The notes: generated from the letters alone by a model not told the origin. 38,251 nt of DNA from Klebsiella pneumoniae (GCA_945877175.1 CAMCRC010000019.1:1-38251); one strand, 5' to 3'. Positions 25,347 to 38,093 are shown, counted from the stretch's first letter. Numbers and translations are program-made.

Positions 25347-25518
25347 AATTGACCGGTGCATTCCCTCGTATGCTGACAATTTGTTACTAATCTGGACATT
25401 CAAGTCCTGTACACTCCGATGAGTACCATCTTCGATCAGGGCCAAGTCTGGCGTTGAACGGAACCTTTAACGACGTACCTGGTGCGTTTTACACGACTCG
25501 TTATATTCCGGAGCTCAC

Positions 25519-27687
25519 ATGACAGATCGGCGAATCGTCATTTCCCATTTGTTGCATTCCACTTTTCGACAAGCCAAAGCACTCTCTACCCTTACACTCG
25601 CCATCGCCATATCCACTGCCCAGGCACAGGACGCCGGCAACGACGAATCCACCGTGATTTACCCCGCCAGTTTCTTCGAGCAATACACCCCGACGTCTGC
25701 AAATGACATGGTTGCCCGCATTCCGGGCGTCTCGCTGAACAACGGCAACAACAGCAACAACAGAGGGGGCGGCGGCGGACGCGGTCTAGGGACAAGCGGC
25801 GACTTGCTCATCAACGGCAAACGTCTGGCGGGCAAGGACAATTCCACCAGCAGCCAGCTGACCCGCATTTCCGCTGACCAGGTTGAGCGCATCGAGATCA
25901 TTCGCGGCTCCTCCGGTGCCATGGATGTGCGTGGCGCCAGTCAGGTAGTGAACATCGTGCTCAAGGAGTCAACCGATACTGCCAGCATTTCCGCTGAGAT
26001 TGGTGTGGACTATCACCACGACGATACGGCAGACCCGGGTGGCTCCTTCTCCTATGGTGGCCAGGCGGGCAATCTGAACTACCTCGTCAATCTGGAAGCA
26101 GACCCTCGGTACAATGGCTTTACGCGCACGGAATACAACTATCTTCCTGACCGCAGCCTCAGCGAAATCGTGCGGGAGAACAGCTATCGCGACCAGACAG
26201 GCTTGCAGGCCAGCATGACGCTTGGCTATGACTTCACCCGCGATCGCGTTCAGTTCAATGCTCTGATCGGCGAGGAAGGTCACCCCTATGTTATCGACCG
26301 CAGCATTCAGAGGCCCCCCGCTGTGACCGACGTCTTTCGTCGCGAAAGCGAAAAGACCGACAACGACAACAGCAACTGGGAAATCGGCGGCAACCATGAA
26401 CACAGTTTCCTTGATGGAAGCCGTTTTCAGTTCCTTTTCGTGGTGAATGAAGAAGTACGCGACAGCGTCCGGGAGCGTTTTCAGGTGCTGTCCGGTGCGC
26501 GGAACAAACTCCAGTATCTGCAATCAGACCGCACCACGCGCGAGCGCATAGGCCAGGCCAGTTACAGTTGGCGTCTGACCGATTCACAAGACATGCAACT
26601 GGGCTTCGAACGTGCCCAGACGATTCTGGATACCCGCTTGCTGGTGGGCTCAGGCACCGCCACAGGCGCGCCATCTGCTGCCTACGGCTCCCTGGTGCCG
26701 GTGCTCTCTTCTTCCAACCCTGGCTCCACTGTGGAAGAAATCCGCTACGAAGCCTTCGCCGTGCACAACTGGACGCTGAACCCACGCATGAGTCTGGAAA
26801 GCACACTGCTTTATGAAGACTCCGCTATCACCCAGGCAGGCGCTGCGAGTCGCGAACGGGATTTCCAGTTCTGGCGTCCCAAACTGGACTATCGTTTCGA
26901 CATGACGGGCTCTCTACAGTTGCGTGCCACTGCAGAGCGGCAAGTGTCCCAACTCAGCTTCGAAAGCTTCACTGCCACACTGAATTATCAGGACAACGAC
27001 AAGGATTCCACCGCCGGCAATCCGGATCTGACACAGGAAATCGAAATGCGCTACGAACTGGGTCTGGAGTACCGCCTGCCCAATGACGGCGGCGTGCTCA
27101 GTGCCCGCGCTTTCTATCGCGACATCGACGATGTGATCGGCAAGATCAATCTCTCCCGTGATTCCACAAAGCCAAAATCCGCCACCGGCAATCTCGGCAA
27201 TGGCAAGCGCTATGGCGCGTACCTCAACGCCAGCGCGCGGCTGGGATTCCTGGGCATGCCTGAGGCTGTCCTGACATCCAGCCTGAACATCTTTGACTCC
27301 TATGTCCATGATCCGATTGTGGGCGGGGACAGACGCTTCAACGGACGTGGCAATGCGTCGATCGGCTTCCGTCACGACCTGCCGTCCCTCGGCGTCAACT
27401 ATGGATTCGACCTGCAGAACGACTTCCACGGCGGTGAAAAGAACATTGATGTGGATACACTGGAAACAAGTCGGCCGGGCAGACAACTGAATCTGTTCAT
27501 TTCCAAGGTGGCATTTCAGGACATCACTTTCCGGCTGGAAGCCAACAACGTGCTGAAATCCGAGTTCTGCCGCGACCGTCTGCGTTTCGACGGGCTGGTG
27601 GCCAATGGCTTGCTGGAAGAGATCGAGGATTCCTGCGGCTCCGGAGGCGGTCAGAAAATCGCCATCAAGATCCGCTCGACGTTCTAG
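25519..27687 (+). CDS. TonB-dependent outer-membrane receptor
   Basis: A 722-residue receptor. A long signal region (to about residue 36, ending TAQAQ) is followed by a possible TonB box (STVIYPA) and a plug domain (about 50-155) with MVARIPGVSLNN, LLINGKRLAGK and RISADQVERIEIIRGSSGAMD. The rest is beta-barrel with the expected aromatic C-terminal end (KIRSTF). The plug contains an unusual Asn/Gly run, NNGNNSNNRGGGGGRGLG. These receptors import siderophores, metal complexes, haem or oligosaccharides; the ligand is unknown. It is followed on the same strand by the cupredoxin, DUF3034-like and truncated-haemoglobin genes, which suggests a copper or haem connection. Confidence 0.9.
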   Translation: MTDRRIVISHLLHSTFRQAKALSTLTLAIAISTAQAQDAGNDESTVIYPASFFEQYTPTSANDMVARIPGVSLNNGNNSNNRGGGGGRGLGTSGDLLINGKRLAGKDNSTSSQLTRISADQVERIEIIRGSSGAMDVRGASQVVNIVLKESTDTASISAEIGVDYHHDDTADPGGSFSYGGQAGNLNYLVNLEADPRYNGFTRTEYNYLPDRSLSEIVRENSYRDQTGLQASMTLGYDFTRDRVQFNALIGEEGHPYVIDRSIQRPPAVTDVFRRESEKTDNDNSNWEIGGNHEHSFLDGSRFQFLFVVNEEVRDSVRERFQVLSGARNKLQYLQSDRTTRERIGQASYSWRLTDSQDMQLGFERAQTILDTRLLVGSGTATGAPSAAYGSLVPVLSSSNPGSTVEEIRYEAFAVHNWTLNPRMSLESTLLYEDSAITQAGAASRERDFQFWRPKLDYRFDMTGSLQLRATAERQVSQLSFESFTATLNYQDNDKDSTAGNPDLTQEIEMRYELGLEYRLPNDGGVLSARAFYRDIDDVIGKINLSRDSTKPKSATGNLGNGKRYGAYLNASARLGFLGMPEAVLTSSLNIFDSYVHDPIVGGDRRFNGRGNASIGFRHDLPSLGVNYGFDLQNDFHGGEKNIDVDTLETSRPGRQLNLFISKVAFQDITFRLEANNVLKSEFCRDRLRFDGLVANGLLEEIEDSCGSGGGQKIAIKIRSTF

Positions 27688-27795
27688 ATCTTCGCGACAG
27701 CGCACCGAACCTTCGCAAAGGTGCTTCACACTGATCCAATTGTGAGCGCCTTCGCGTCTGCTTGGCAGGCCATAGACCTCATTTCAGGAATTTCC

Positions 27796-28434
27796 GTGCG
27801 CAACAGAATCCTCTGCCCTTGGCTGTCTGCTTTGCTGACTATTCTTCCTGCCGGCGCCGGGGCTGCCGAGCTGACCGTCAGCATCGTCGATCAGAATGGC
27901 CAGCCCCTGGCCAACGCCGTGGTGGAAAGCCCTCTGGCAATTGTGCAGCAGGCGCCAGCCGAGGTGGCGATCATTGATCAGGTGAACAAGCACTTCGTGC
28001 CCATGGTCATCGCCATTCAGCAGGGCCAGTCCGTCGACTTCCCCAACAACGACAACATTCGCCATCATGTCTATTCCTTCTCCCCGATCAAGCAGTTCTC
28101 CACGGAACTGTATGCCGACGTGCATGGCGATCCGGTGCTATTCGACAAGGCAGGCGTGGCTGTTCTGGGCTGCAATATTCACGACAGCATGGTCGGTTAC
28201 ATCTATGTCAGCGCTTTCCAGCATGTCGCAGTAACCGACAGCACGGGAGTCGTCAGTTTCCCGCAGGAGCAGATCCCCGCTACGGTAACTGTCTGGCATC
28301 CCTGGTCCGCCGATCCGGACAATCGCCGCGAAGTCAGCACGTCGTCTGTGGCGAATGGCGGCACCTTGCAGGTGCAGTTGAACACAAGGCAACCGGAACA
28401 GGATTTTGGTTTCCGCGCCATAAGCCAACCGTAA
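27796..28434 (+). CDS. Exported cupredoxin (methylamine-utilisation/plastocyanin-like)
   Basis: A 212-residue periplasmic blue-copper-type protein. The GTG at 27796 with AGGA upstream begins a signal peptide (RNRILCPWLSALLTILPAGAGA); the in-frame ATG at 27721 lies in front of it without support. After a short Ig-like beta segment (about 26-65) comes a cupredoxin domain with type I copper ligands H90 (or H91) in NIRHHVYSF, C126, H129 and M132 in LGCNIHDSMVGYI. C-terminal beta-rich domain about 145-200. This type often acts as a soluble electron carrier or copper carrier. It lies 108 nt after the receptor gene and 16 nt before the DUF3034-like gene. Confidence 0.82.
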   Translation: MRNRILCPWLSALLTILPAGAGAAELTVSIVDQNGQPLANAVVESPLAIVQQAPAEVAIIDQVNKHFVPMVIAIQQGQSVDFPNNDNIRHHVYSFSPIKQFSTELYADVHGDPVLFDKAGVAVLGCNIHDSMVGYIYVSAFQHVAVTDSTGVVSFPQEQIPATVTVWHPWSADPDNRREVSTSSVANGGTLQVQLNTRQPEQDFGFRAISQP

Positions 28435-28450
28435 GTACGGAAGGGAAAAC

Positions 28451-29302
28451 GTGAACACTCTCGCCTGCCAGTTGCTCCTGCCCCTGCTCGCATGCAGCGT
28501 TCTGTGTTCGACATCCGCCAACGCTCAGCCGGACGGTCGCCTGCGCGGCACCGGGGGAGTGAGCAGCATCAGCGGTGCCGGTGGTGGCGGACTGACACCG
28601 TGGGCCACACTGACCAGTTACGCGACGCGCGACGCCCGGGGCGGCAGCGTCTTCGCATCCCATGTTTCAGTGGATGACCACACCCTCGACGTGGCCGGCG
28701 CTGCTATCAATCTGCATGACAGGATCGAACTGTCCTATGCCCGCCAGAAATTTCGCACCAAGGCCAGCGACGCTACCATCAGTCAGGACTCCACGGGCCT
28801 GAAACTGCGCCTGGCCGGGGACGTTCTGTACGGGCGCGCGCCGCAGGTAGTGCTGGGCGTGGAACACAATGCGCTGCGTGACCCTGCTGCAGCCCTGGCA
28901 GCCGGCGCCCGCGCCACGAAGGGCACCGACCTCTATGTCAGCGCCGCACGTGCCTGGATTGCAGGGCCTGCAGCGCGCACCACGCTGCTGAATGTCAGTG
29001 TCCGGCATTCCCGTGCCAATCAGTTCGGCCTGCTGGGCTATGGTGGGGATGACCAGGGCGGCAAAGTACATCTGGAAGCGGCTGTAGCGATGTTTCTGTC
29101 ACGGGGCTGGGCAGTCGGCGCCGAGTACCGCCAGAAACCAGACAACCTCAGTGCACAGACGGAAAACGATGCGTTCGACGTCTTCGTCTCCTGGTTTCCG
29201 GACAAACGACTCTCGCTCACGGGCGCCTGGGTGATGCTGGGCGACGTTGCAGGCGCCCCCGACCAGTCCGGTTTCTATCTGTCACTGCAAGGAACGTTCT
29301 GA
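28451..29302 (+). CDS. DUF3034-family exported protein
   Basis: A 283-residue protein with a Sec signal (cleaved after SANA). The mature start (GRLRGTGGVSSISGAGGGGLTPWATL) is the hallmark of the DUF3034 family as I know it. The remainder reads as alternating amphipathic strands (IELSYARQKF, LKLRLAGDVLYG, GWAVGAEYRQKP, ending LSLQGTF), so it is probably an outer-membrane beta-barrel of about 12 strands. GTG start with GGAAGGG upstream. It starts 16 nt after the cupredoxin gene and ends 3 nt before the truncated-haemoglobin gene. Function unknown. Confidence 0.75.
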   Translation: MNTLACQLLLPLLACSVLCSTSANAQPDGRLRGTGGVSSISGAGGGGLTPWATLTSYATRDARGGSVFASHVSVDDHTLDVAGAAINLHDRIELSYARQKFRTKASDATISQDSTGLKLRLAGDVLYGRAPQVVLGVEHNALRDPAAALAAGARATKGTDLYVSAARAWIAGPAARTTLLNVSVRHSRANQFGLLGYGGDDQGGKVHLEAAVAMFLSRGWAVGAEYRQKPDNLSAQTENDAFDVFVSWFPDKRLSLTGAWVMLGDVAGAPDQSGFYLSLQGTF

Positions 29303-29305
29303 ATC

Positions 29306-29752
29306 ATGACACTCCCTTTCAAGAACTCTGTTGCCTGGCGCGCTCTGCTGCTGTCCACAAGCATTGCCTTCGGCGCCTGCAGCTCGTTGCAGAACGACGA
29401 AAACCTGTACGTTGCACTGGGTGGCGAGAAAGCAATTGCCGTCATCGTGGAGAATTTCATTCTGGAGATCGCCCGCGACGAACGCATCATCGATCACTTC
29501 GAAGTGTCCAATGTGCAGCGCTTTCGCGTCATGATGAATCAGCATCTGTGCTTGGTAGCCGACGGCCCATGCGAGTACACGGGTGACAGCATGATCGATA
29601 CTCATGCGGGCATGGGCGTGACGGAGGGAGACTTCAACGCCATCGTGGAGAACATGATGGCGGCGATGGACAAGGCAGAGGTTCCCCTGGGGCCGCAGAA
29701 CCGCCTGCTGGCGAGACTGGCGACCTTCCGGGGAGAAATCATCCATCGCTGA
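29306..29752 (+). CDS. Lipoprotein group 1 truncated haemoglobin
   Basis: A 148-residue protein that starts with a lipoprotein signal (AFGAC, C25), then a group 1 truncated globin (LYVALGGEKAIAVIVENF, proximal-histidine region DTHAGMG with H100, and VTEGDFNAIVENM). The B10 position, usually Tyr, appears to be Ile52. Two cysteines, C82 and C89, could form a disulfide, fitting a periplasmic location. Such exported truncated globins occur in other proteobacteria. Roles in NO or O2 chemistry or haem binding are inferred. Last gene of the receptor-cupredoxin run; it converges on the methyltransferase-like gene with a 14-nt gap. Confidence 0.85.
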   Translation: MTLPFKNSVAWRALLLSTSIAFGACSSLQNDENLYVALGGEKAIAVIVENFILEIARDERIIDHFEVSNVQRFRVMMNQHLCLVADGPCEYTGDSMIDTHAGMGVTEGDFNAIVENMMAAMDKAEVPLGPQNRLLARLATFRGEIIHR

Positions 29753-36628: not shown

Positions 36629-37414
36629 ATGTTGCTGCACCGCATTCTACGCCCGCTGCGCGCTCTTCTGCTCGGCGGCCTGCTGTCCGCTGCGGCGGCA
36701 CAGGGGCAGACACCCACTGTAGCAGCGGCCTCCGACCTGCAGTTTGCGCTGGAGGAAGTGCGGGCGCAGTTCGCGGCGGAAACCGGCCACCAGGTGCAAC
36801 TGGTGTTTGGCTCGTCTGGCAATCTCTTCCGACAAATTGTCGAGGGCGCTCCTTTTCAGATGTTTCTGTCTGCCGACGAGGCCTTCGTCAGCCAGCTTGC
36901 TGATCTTGGCCTCAGCCAGGACGAGGGCGAGCTGTACGCCATAGGTCGCCTGGCGCTTATAGCTGCCGCGGGCTCGCCACTCCAGGTGGACTCAACACTT
37001 TCCGGGCTGCGCGACGCCGTGGCGCGAGGGCAGATCCGCCGCTTCGCCATTGCCAATCCGGTACACGCGCCCTATGGCGCACGTGCCGAGGAGGTACTGC
37101 GCCACACAGGACTCTGGGATGCTCTGAAGGACACGCTGGTGCTCGGCGAAAATGTGTCGCAGGCAGCGCAGTTCGCGGCTTCCGGCAATGCCCAGGGCGG
37201 CATCATTGCCTACTCGCTGGCTCTGGCACCCAATGTGGCCGGCATGGGGACTTCTGCCCTGCTGCCAGAAGAATGGCACACGCCACTGCGCCAGCGCATG
37301 GTGCTGATGCATTCTGCGGCACCGGCCGTGGAAGCGTTCTACGACTATCTGCAGCAGGCCACCGCGCGCAGCATCATGCGCCGCCATGGCTTCAGCCTGC
37401 CGGGTGAGGAGTAA
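36629..37414 (+). CDS. modA: Molybdate ABC transporter substrate-binding protein
   Basis: A 261-residue periplasmic protein with a signal peptide (to about residue 27, AQGQ). TVAAASDLQFALEEV, VFGSSGNLFRQI, GAPFQMFLSADE and later the stretch IANPVHAPYGARAEEVL are the ModA pattern; the serines in ASDL and GSSG bind the oxyanion. It delivers molybdate (or tungstate) to ModBC for molybdenum cofactor enzymes. First of modA-modB-modC; its stop is 4 nt before the modB start. Confidence 0.94.
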   Translation: MLLHRILRPLRALLLGGLLSAAAAQGQTPTVAAASDLQFALEEVRAQFAAETGHQVQLVFGSSGNLFRQIVEGAPFQMFLSADEAFVSQLADLGLSQDEGELYAIGRLALIAAAGSPLQVDSTLSGLRDAVARGQIRRFAIANPVHAPYGARAEEVLRHTGLWDALKDTLVLGENVSQAAQFAASGNAQGGIIAYSLALAPNVAGMGTSALLPEEWHTPLRQRMVLMHSAAPAVEAFYDYLQQATARSIMRRHGFSLPGEE

Positions 37415-37418
37415 GTCC

Positions 37419-38093
37419 GTGGATTGGACGGCCCTGCTGCTTTCCCTGCAACTGTCGTTCTGGACGATGCTTGTTCTGTTGCCAGTGGGTATCTGGATGG
37501 GCCGCCGGCTGGCCTGGACGCAGATGCGCAGCAAGAGCCTGCTTGAAGCCCTGGTAGCGTTGCCGTTGGTGCTGCCGCCGACAGTTCTGGGCTTCTATCT
37601 GCTCGTGGCGATGGGGGCTGGCTCGCCCGTGGGCCGCGCGTGGGAGTCCCTCTTCGGACAGCAACTGACATTTTCCTTCTCTGGCCTGCTGGTCGCCTCT
37701 GTCATCTTCAACCTGCCCTTTGCCATTCAGCCCATGCAGCGAGCGTTTGAGTCCATCGCTCCGGAAGTACGCGAGGCGGGTCGCTGCTGTGGCCTGTCTC
37801 CGTGGCAGATTCTGATCCGCATAGAACTGCCACTGGCATGGCCTGGCATTCTATCGGCGCTGGTACTGACCTTTGCCCACACCCTTGGGGAATTCGGCGT
37901 CGTGCTGATGGTCGGAGGCAGCATTCCCGGGGAGACGCGCACCATCGCAATTTCCATTTATGACCGGGTACAGGCCTTCGACAACCAGTCCGCCGGCCTG
38001 ATGTCGGCCGTGCTGCTGATCATTTCGCTGGCCGCCATCAGCCTGTCCTATTTTGCCACTGCACGCATGACGTCGAGGCCGCGCCATGCGTGA
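37419..38093 (+). CDS. modB: Molybdate ABC transporter permease
   Basis: A 224-residue inner-membrane protein with about five membrane helices. The EAA loop is [29 protein letters not shown], and [29 protein letters not shown] is the ModB mark. The GTG at 37419 (GAGGAG upstream) begins the mature pattern [15 protein letters not shown]; an ATG at 37386 would overlap modA by 29 nt. Its end overlaps modC by 8 nt. Confidence 0.94.

Follow-up and report, generated by a model that had tools for sequence, protein, structure and literature searches.

The window, a stretch of 38,251 nucleotides, contains a run of four open reading frames, all of them on the + strand. The first encodes a TonB-dependent receptor (TBDR) of 722 aa (25519–27687), in which both the plug (PF07715, E 3e-10) and the barrel (PF00593, E 9e-15) of TonB-dependent transporters were recognised by Pfam. 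It is followed by CUP1, a periplasmic amicyanin-type cupredoxin (27796–28434), a DUF3034 outer-membrane protein that is predicted to form a barrel (28451–29302), and trHb, a truncated haemoglobin with a lipobox (29306–29752). A conserved 30-nt leader (TCAGnGCCAnGTCnGGCGTTGAACGGAACC; 25436–25465, + strand) lies ~50 nt 5′ of the TBDR start codon. The CUP1 frame is open from 27721, and the gap between the TBDR and cupredoxin genes is 33 nt when counted to this first start codon. However, the GTG at 27796, which has AGGAA 6 nt upstream and is followed by a signal peptide, is probably the likelier start, and its use gives a gap of 108 nt. This gap is poorly conserved and contains no recognisable promoter, and no + strand terminator was found in it in the window; as far as the sequence indicates, the lack of a terminator is compatible with co-transcription. 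The gaps between the cupredoxin and DUF3034 genes and between the DUF3034 and trHb genes are exactly 16 and 3 nt, respectively, so the run in one direction and the two spacings described in the first-pass annotation were confirmed. The last three genes are hereafter called the triad. The possibility that they are chance neighbours was ruled out; the conserved-neighbourhood search that had been proposed as a check found the triad in related genera and beyond.

Products of the triad

The copper ligands of CUP1, H90, C126, H129, and M132 (28063–28065, 28171–28173, 28180–28182, and 28189–28191), were invariant in an alignment of 56 homologues, and they form a C-x2-H-x2-M loop, as in amicyanin. In the AF2 model (pLDDT 89), the cupredoxin domain comprises approximately residues 55–140 (Z about 12) and interrupts a small beta domain similar to the N-terminal extension (NTE) of a SusC transporter. 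The predicted fold and the His-Cys-His-Met ligands place CUP1 among the type I cupredoxins with an amicyanin-like loop, but the additional SusC-NTE-like domain that surrounds the cupredoxin domain distinguishes it from amicyanin itself. Cupredoxins of this kind are often annotated as methylamine utilisation proteins.

The DUF3034 protein was covered by the whole profile of PF11231 (306 bits, against a curated cut-off of 25), and its AF2 model is a 12-strand barrel (pLDDT 86.5). The trHb protein matched PF01152 (50 bits) and, with a proximal His F8 (His100, 29603–29605) that was kept in 100 of 101 homologues, can be assigned from its sequence to the group 1 truncated haemoglobins. The lipobox cysteine (Cys25) was kept in 84 of these homologues, and two more cysteines, Cys82 and Cys89, in 100. 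The intact H-C-H-M ligands, the probable beta-barrel, and the lipoprotein globin that had been noticed in the first-pass annotation were thus all found again, and its reading of an envelope system that holds copper and haem proteins, with no linked inner-membrane transporter, also stood.

Signalling receptors associated with the triad

To describe the genomic context, we fetched 80 loci with DUF3034, a sample that is not random because it consists of the nearest DUF3034 relatives. DUF3034 and trHb occurred together and on the same strand in all 80 loci, a cupredoxin was present in 73, and 64 contained a receptor with a GGDEF-EAL output. This receptor has ~770 aa and consists of dCache_3, HAMP, GGDEF, and EAL domains. 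Outside the window's genus, the usual order of the module was cupredoxin, dCache-HAMP-GGDEF-EAL receptor, DUF3034, and trHb. The median gap was −4 nt for both the cupredoxin–receptor and the receptor–DUF3034 pairs (61 measurable loci), and 0 for DUF3034–trHb (80 loci). DUF3034–trHb was also found in some genomes without a nearby cupredoxin or receptor. No further conserved neighbour gene was detected, the other families reaching ≤ 19 of 72 loci, so that, unlike amicyanin, the cupredoxin has no linked methylamine dehydrogenase. We found no literature on this module among open-licence PMC papers. Because the EAL motif was kept in 50 of 55 receptors and the GGDEF motif was often degenerate, the receptor is probably a c-di-GMP phosphodiesterase in most gammaproteobacteria with the module, as judged from these motifs. 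Upstream of the cupredoxin gene, no shared site for FNR, CRP, Fur, NsrR, NorR, CueR, or NarL exceeded the shuffled sequences, with the exception of FNR-like sites with one mismatch (3 vs. 0.6 expected).

In Pseudohongiella, the sister genus of the window's genus, the triad is divergent from a gene beside recX that encodes a dCache-HAMP-class III cyclase. The cyclase and GGDEF-EAL receptors are homologous in their periplasmic, transmembrane, and HAMP part (343 columns; hhalign probability 100, E 1.6e-40). The window's genome encodes a cyclase of this type on another contig (C70), with 50–53% identity to the Pseudohongiella cyclases over the full length. A Pfam search of this genome for dCache_3 gave no match, and the sensor of the cyclase was found with a family-specific profile: the cyclase scored 73 bits with the periplasmic-only profile, which matched none of the other EAL, GGDEF, and cyclase proteins of the genome that were tested. 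The receptor on C70 also matched PF00211, and when its sequence was inspected for the catalytic residues of this class (two metal Asp, Lys, Thr, Asn, Arg), the motifs FSDIKGFT, KYTGDS, and YTVIGDSVNLSARL were read by eye; the product of the class III cyclase output in both genera is probably cAMP. The first-pass annotation missed this signalling receptor because it is encoded elsewhere in the genome.

A second cupredoxin gene, whose product also keeps the ligands intact (cupredoxin 2), precedes that of the cyclase on C70; in genus members with better assemblies (loci L186–L191), the two genes immediately follow recA and recX. In the window's genus, therefore, the triad sits behind the TBDR and a different cupredoxin lies beside the cyclase. 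In a tree of the cupredoxins, CUP1 was the sister of the Pseudohongiella triad cupredoxin (support 100/99), and cupredoxin 2 belonged to a clade distant from CUP1. The position of CUP1 indicates that the triad was inherited within the family that comprises Pseudohongiella and the window's genus. Any order of events, such as a move or a gain, would be tentative.

Proposed sensory role and its alternatives

Based on these results, we think it likely, if far from certain, that the cupredoxin–DUF3034–trHb triad forms the outer half of a sensory system that spans the envelope, and not an importer. This reading draws on the coupling of the genes, the homology of the sensors, the exchange of outputs, the conservation of the copper and haem sites, and the prediction of the barrel. 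In such a system, the DUF3034 barrel in the outer membrane would admit a ligand or anchor the complex, the trHb lipoprotein would probably be held at the outer membrane, on its periplasmic side, and trHb and the cupredoxin may report the chemical, redox, or gas state there. As to the signal, the apolar pocket of the globin would mildly favour NO or CO over O2. The conserved gene pairing and the PruR-DcpA system described below suggest that a charged or redox-changed cupredoxin could engage the periplasmic dCache domain of the receptor. The cupredoxin-bound receptor in the inner membrane would then set the cytoplasmic output and change the second messenger. In the window's genus, the TBDR may capture a ligand for the triad, the cyclase and cupredoxin 2 being at recA–recX, and CUP1 may still act on the cyclase. 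In the window organism, the link between the triad and the cyclase is the weakest step, because the two loci are separate and a cupredoxin of its own accompanies the cyclase.

These two features would also be expected if the triad had left signalling in the window's genus, with the TBDR, CUP1, DUF3034, and trHb forming their own unit of ligand capture or periplasmic redox chemistry and cupredoxin 2 alone serving the cyclase. We regard this as unlikely, if still worth considering. Three genomes of the genus (G009, G011, and G013) keep the cyclase and cupredoxin 2 without the triad, so the cyclase half can work without it, and the private leader of the TBDR, together with the lack of a recognisable promoter or terminator before CUP1, also favours a separate unit. 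However, every triad genome of the genus has the cyclase too, with a split frame in one, and the same three genes lie beside the receptor in the sister genus.

The first-pass annotation had proposed, besides redox chemistry with NO or O2 at the outer membrane, the import of a copper or haem ligand; in this reading, the TBDR would pass the ligand to the periplasmic cupredoxin and globin. The gene order and direction in the window's genus agree with this, as do the intact copper and haem sites. In the triad genomes of the genus, the TBDR lies between etfQO and CUP1; in one genome (G003), the TBDR and CUP1 are on separate contigs that both end there, and another (G002), in which the contig ends inside the TBDR, was left out of this judgement. 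The leader is present in a single copy per genome, before the TBDR of this locus only, and was found in 10 of 10 genus members with the TBDR and in 0 of 4 without it. It matched no Rfam family, and a riboswitch was rejected on this basis. All four genes are absent from the site in G009, G011, and G013, and in G008 except for a broken cupredoxin remnant. The TBDR can also occur alone: G004 keeps it and its leader, lacks the other three genes, and has 218 bp between the TBDR and a methyltransferase gene. In relatives from outside the genus, the TBDR was never beside the other three genes. The linkage on which the import proposal had been staked was therefore observed inside the genus and was absent outside it. 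Furthermore, the TBDR is one of ~8 paralogues per genome, no PDB chain matched it at E 0.001, so that no relative names a substrate, and the neighbourhood of the module contains no conserved copper or haem gene, the partner conserved in relatives being a signalling receptor. As the TBDR is limited to one genus and can be separated from the triad, an import operon was rejected as a general function, and we consider import improbable overall.

Another explanation is detoxification in the envelope, trHb and the cupredoxin acting as a chain that scavenges NO or O2. One unit does hold a globin and a cupredoxin. HbN, with which trHb shares the group 1 fold and the proximal histidine, performs NO dioxygenation with TyrB10 and GlnE11. 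In HbN numbering, an ungapped offset of 19 residues places His100 on His81, Ile52 on TyrB10, and Met77 on GlnE11. The distal pair of HbN is thus absent from trHb, the B10 and E11 positions being hydrophobic in nearly all 101 homologues; trHb further differs from HbN-type proteins in being an exported lipoprotein with two conserved cysteines. The apolar B10 and E11 disfavour a role as NO dioxygenase. In addition, no reductase is linked to the module, of which the signalling receptor is the strongest partner, and a scavenging chain therefore seems very improbable.

The fold nearest to the DUF3034 model was FapF of Pseudomonas amyloid secretion (5o65; Z 20.3, rmsd 2.6, 213 aligned residues; PMC5557850), likewise a 12-strand barrel, and the N-terminal segment of the model aligned with the plug region of FapF. 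This top match would suit an exporter of some peptide with the cupredoxin and globin as accessory factors, but such a role is hardly credible given that no fap amyloid genes or similar gene set were conserved among the neighbour families across the loci, and that other 12-strand channels scored close to it (KdgM, Z 18.9; COG4313 channel, Z 18.2). The identity to FapF was 12–14%.

Generality in gammaproteobacteria and known counterparts

The sensory reading was also examined in a class-wide sample of 369 gammaproteobacterial genomes. DUF3034 was found in 18 of these, and trHb adjoined it in 12 of the 18 loci. A search with the cupredoxin only gave strong matches both in genomes that have DUF3034 and in genomes that lack it, and 26 of the 30 strong places examined adjoined a receptor of the same sensor family or shared an apparent operon with one; in one of the 26, a Ser/Thr kinase receptor lies about 1.8 kb from the cupredoxin. 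Conversely, a search with the sensor only gave 24 places, of which 20 had a cupredoxin within about 3.2 kb. The sensor was present in 19 of 19 genomes with a strong cupredoxin vs. 3 of 350 others (Fisher 5e-29, with shared ancestry ignored). Four receptor outputs were distinguished by Pfam: GGDEF-EAL, class III cyclase, histidine kinase, and Ser/Thr kinase. The Ser/Thr kinase receptors matched the periplasmic profile in part only (23–44 bits), and are by sequence the least certain members of the sensor family. Across 35 sensors, the residues D41, T55, N62, and R66 were invariant. In a quick tree of the sensor region, the cyclase receptors formed one group (SH-aLRT 85) and the Ser/Thr kinase receptors another (99), so exchanges of output seem to have been few, with the caution that long branches call for.

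Two other families (~400 and 297 aa), whose C-termini resemble barrels, were found at the cupredoxin in several genomes that lack DUF3034, so these systems may regularly include an outer-membrane part. Our confidence is evenly balanced as to whether these loci represent a general class of gammaproteobacterial sensory systems that span the envelope and have not been described before. In such a class, a blue copper protein would serve as the periplasmic co-receptor, and the outer part would be a barrel-like protein of the outer membrane, drawn from three or more unrelated kinds. Interchangeable outputs (c-di-GMP turnover, cyclic nucleotide, histidine kinase, or Ser/Thr kinase) would be joined to a single homologous receptor domain in the periplasm. 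With DUF3034 as the barrel, a lipoprotein globin would add haem sensing, and its apolar pocket makes NO a possible target.

The nearest precedent for this logic is PruR-DcpA and PruR-DTB of Agrobacterium and other Proteobacteria, in which the gene immediately upstream of the receptor encodes a periplasmic pterin protein that binds the receptor's periplasmic domain, and the output varies (PMC13259868). Both share with the module a gene for a periplasmic redox-cofactor protein directly upstream of, and coupled to, that of a transmembrane receptor, and a conserved periplasmic domain with a swappable output (DGC/PDE or histidine kinase in their case). However, the module pairs its receptor with a copper cupredoxin where those systems have a SUOX-like pterin binder, its outputs extend to class III cyclases and Ser/Thr kinases, and it also encodes a barrel of the outer membrane and often a globin lipoprotein. 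For comparison with the WX7E motif of the DcpA-type periplasmic domain, the module sensors were inspected, and a W-x7-D or E stretch was present in about half of 35. The layout with the partner directly upstream of a receptor with a modular output was found in relatives; in the window's genome it is represented by cupredoxin 2 and the cyclase on C70, not by CUP1. YfiBNR of Pseudomonas aeruginosa forms a chain from an outer-membrane lipoprotein through a periplasmic protein to an inner-membrane c-di-GMP enzyme (PMC4655355), and is similar in layout, but the module has a globin as its lipoprotein and a cupredoxin as its periplasmic protein, and its output is mostly GGDEF-EAL. In NspS-MbaA of Vibrio cholerae, a periplasmic co-receptor likewise controls a transmembrane c-di-GMP enzyme (PMC8967002), but NspS is a polyamine-binding protein where the module has a cupredoxin.

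In the sensory reading, the logic of a periplasmic co-receptor and a modular receptor is a known one, and the new part is a copper protein as the co-receptor. This offers a testable function for DUF3034, for the exported lipoprotein globin, and for cupredoxins of the CUP1 type, and suggests that copper redox proteins can act as signalling co-receptors, beyond their role as electron carriers. The swap of outputs behind one sensor domain, including that from c-di-GMP to a cyclic nucleotide between relatives, allows a clean comparison of second-messenger replacement.

A second cupredoxin and its cyclase

In the genome of the window, a second cupredoxin (233 aa, with its ligands intact) was paired with a class III cyclase on another contig (G000:C70, locus L185:819-3507). 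The full-length dCache-HAMP-class III cyclase gene lies immediately 3' of the cupredoxin gene, and is followed by a gene that we take, from its start sequence, to be DUF1015-like. The cyclase reading frame was split into pieces in two genomes (G004:C6 and G010:C98), reflecting either decay or an assembly error.

Other receptors and outer-membrane proteins

The GGDEF-EAL version was also present in a genome of the window's own family (G023, locus L118). Because, in the tree, the cupredoxin of this locus did not group with the family clade, we interpret it as a transfer or a misbinned contig. At five loci (L259, L260, L261, L262, and L268), cupredoxin proteins, the majority of which exceeded the usual size, were adjoined by transmembrane Ser/Thr kinases whose sensor is cache-like. 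Some cupredoxin-receptor pairs without DUF3034 were adjoined instead by barrel-like proteins of the outer membrane, which belong to two additional families of about 400 aa (L254, L256, L258, L264, and L269) and 297 aa (L265, L266, and L270).

The TonB-dependent receptor and the far end of the window

The 30-nt leader (window 25436-25465) was found before this TonB-dependent receptor gene (25519-27687, + strand) alone, and was retained even in the genome that had lost the triad of cupredoxin, DUF3034 protein, and globin (G004). Approximately 6-13 matches to the receptor were detected per genus genome; the family is expanded in the window's genus. Several members had a partly palindromic TGACAAnTTGTcA-like stretch upstream of the leader. 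On our reading of the sequence, positions 36629-38093 look like the beginning of a putative molybdate-type binding protein and permease pair.
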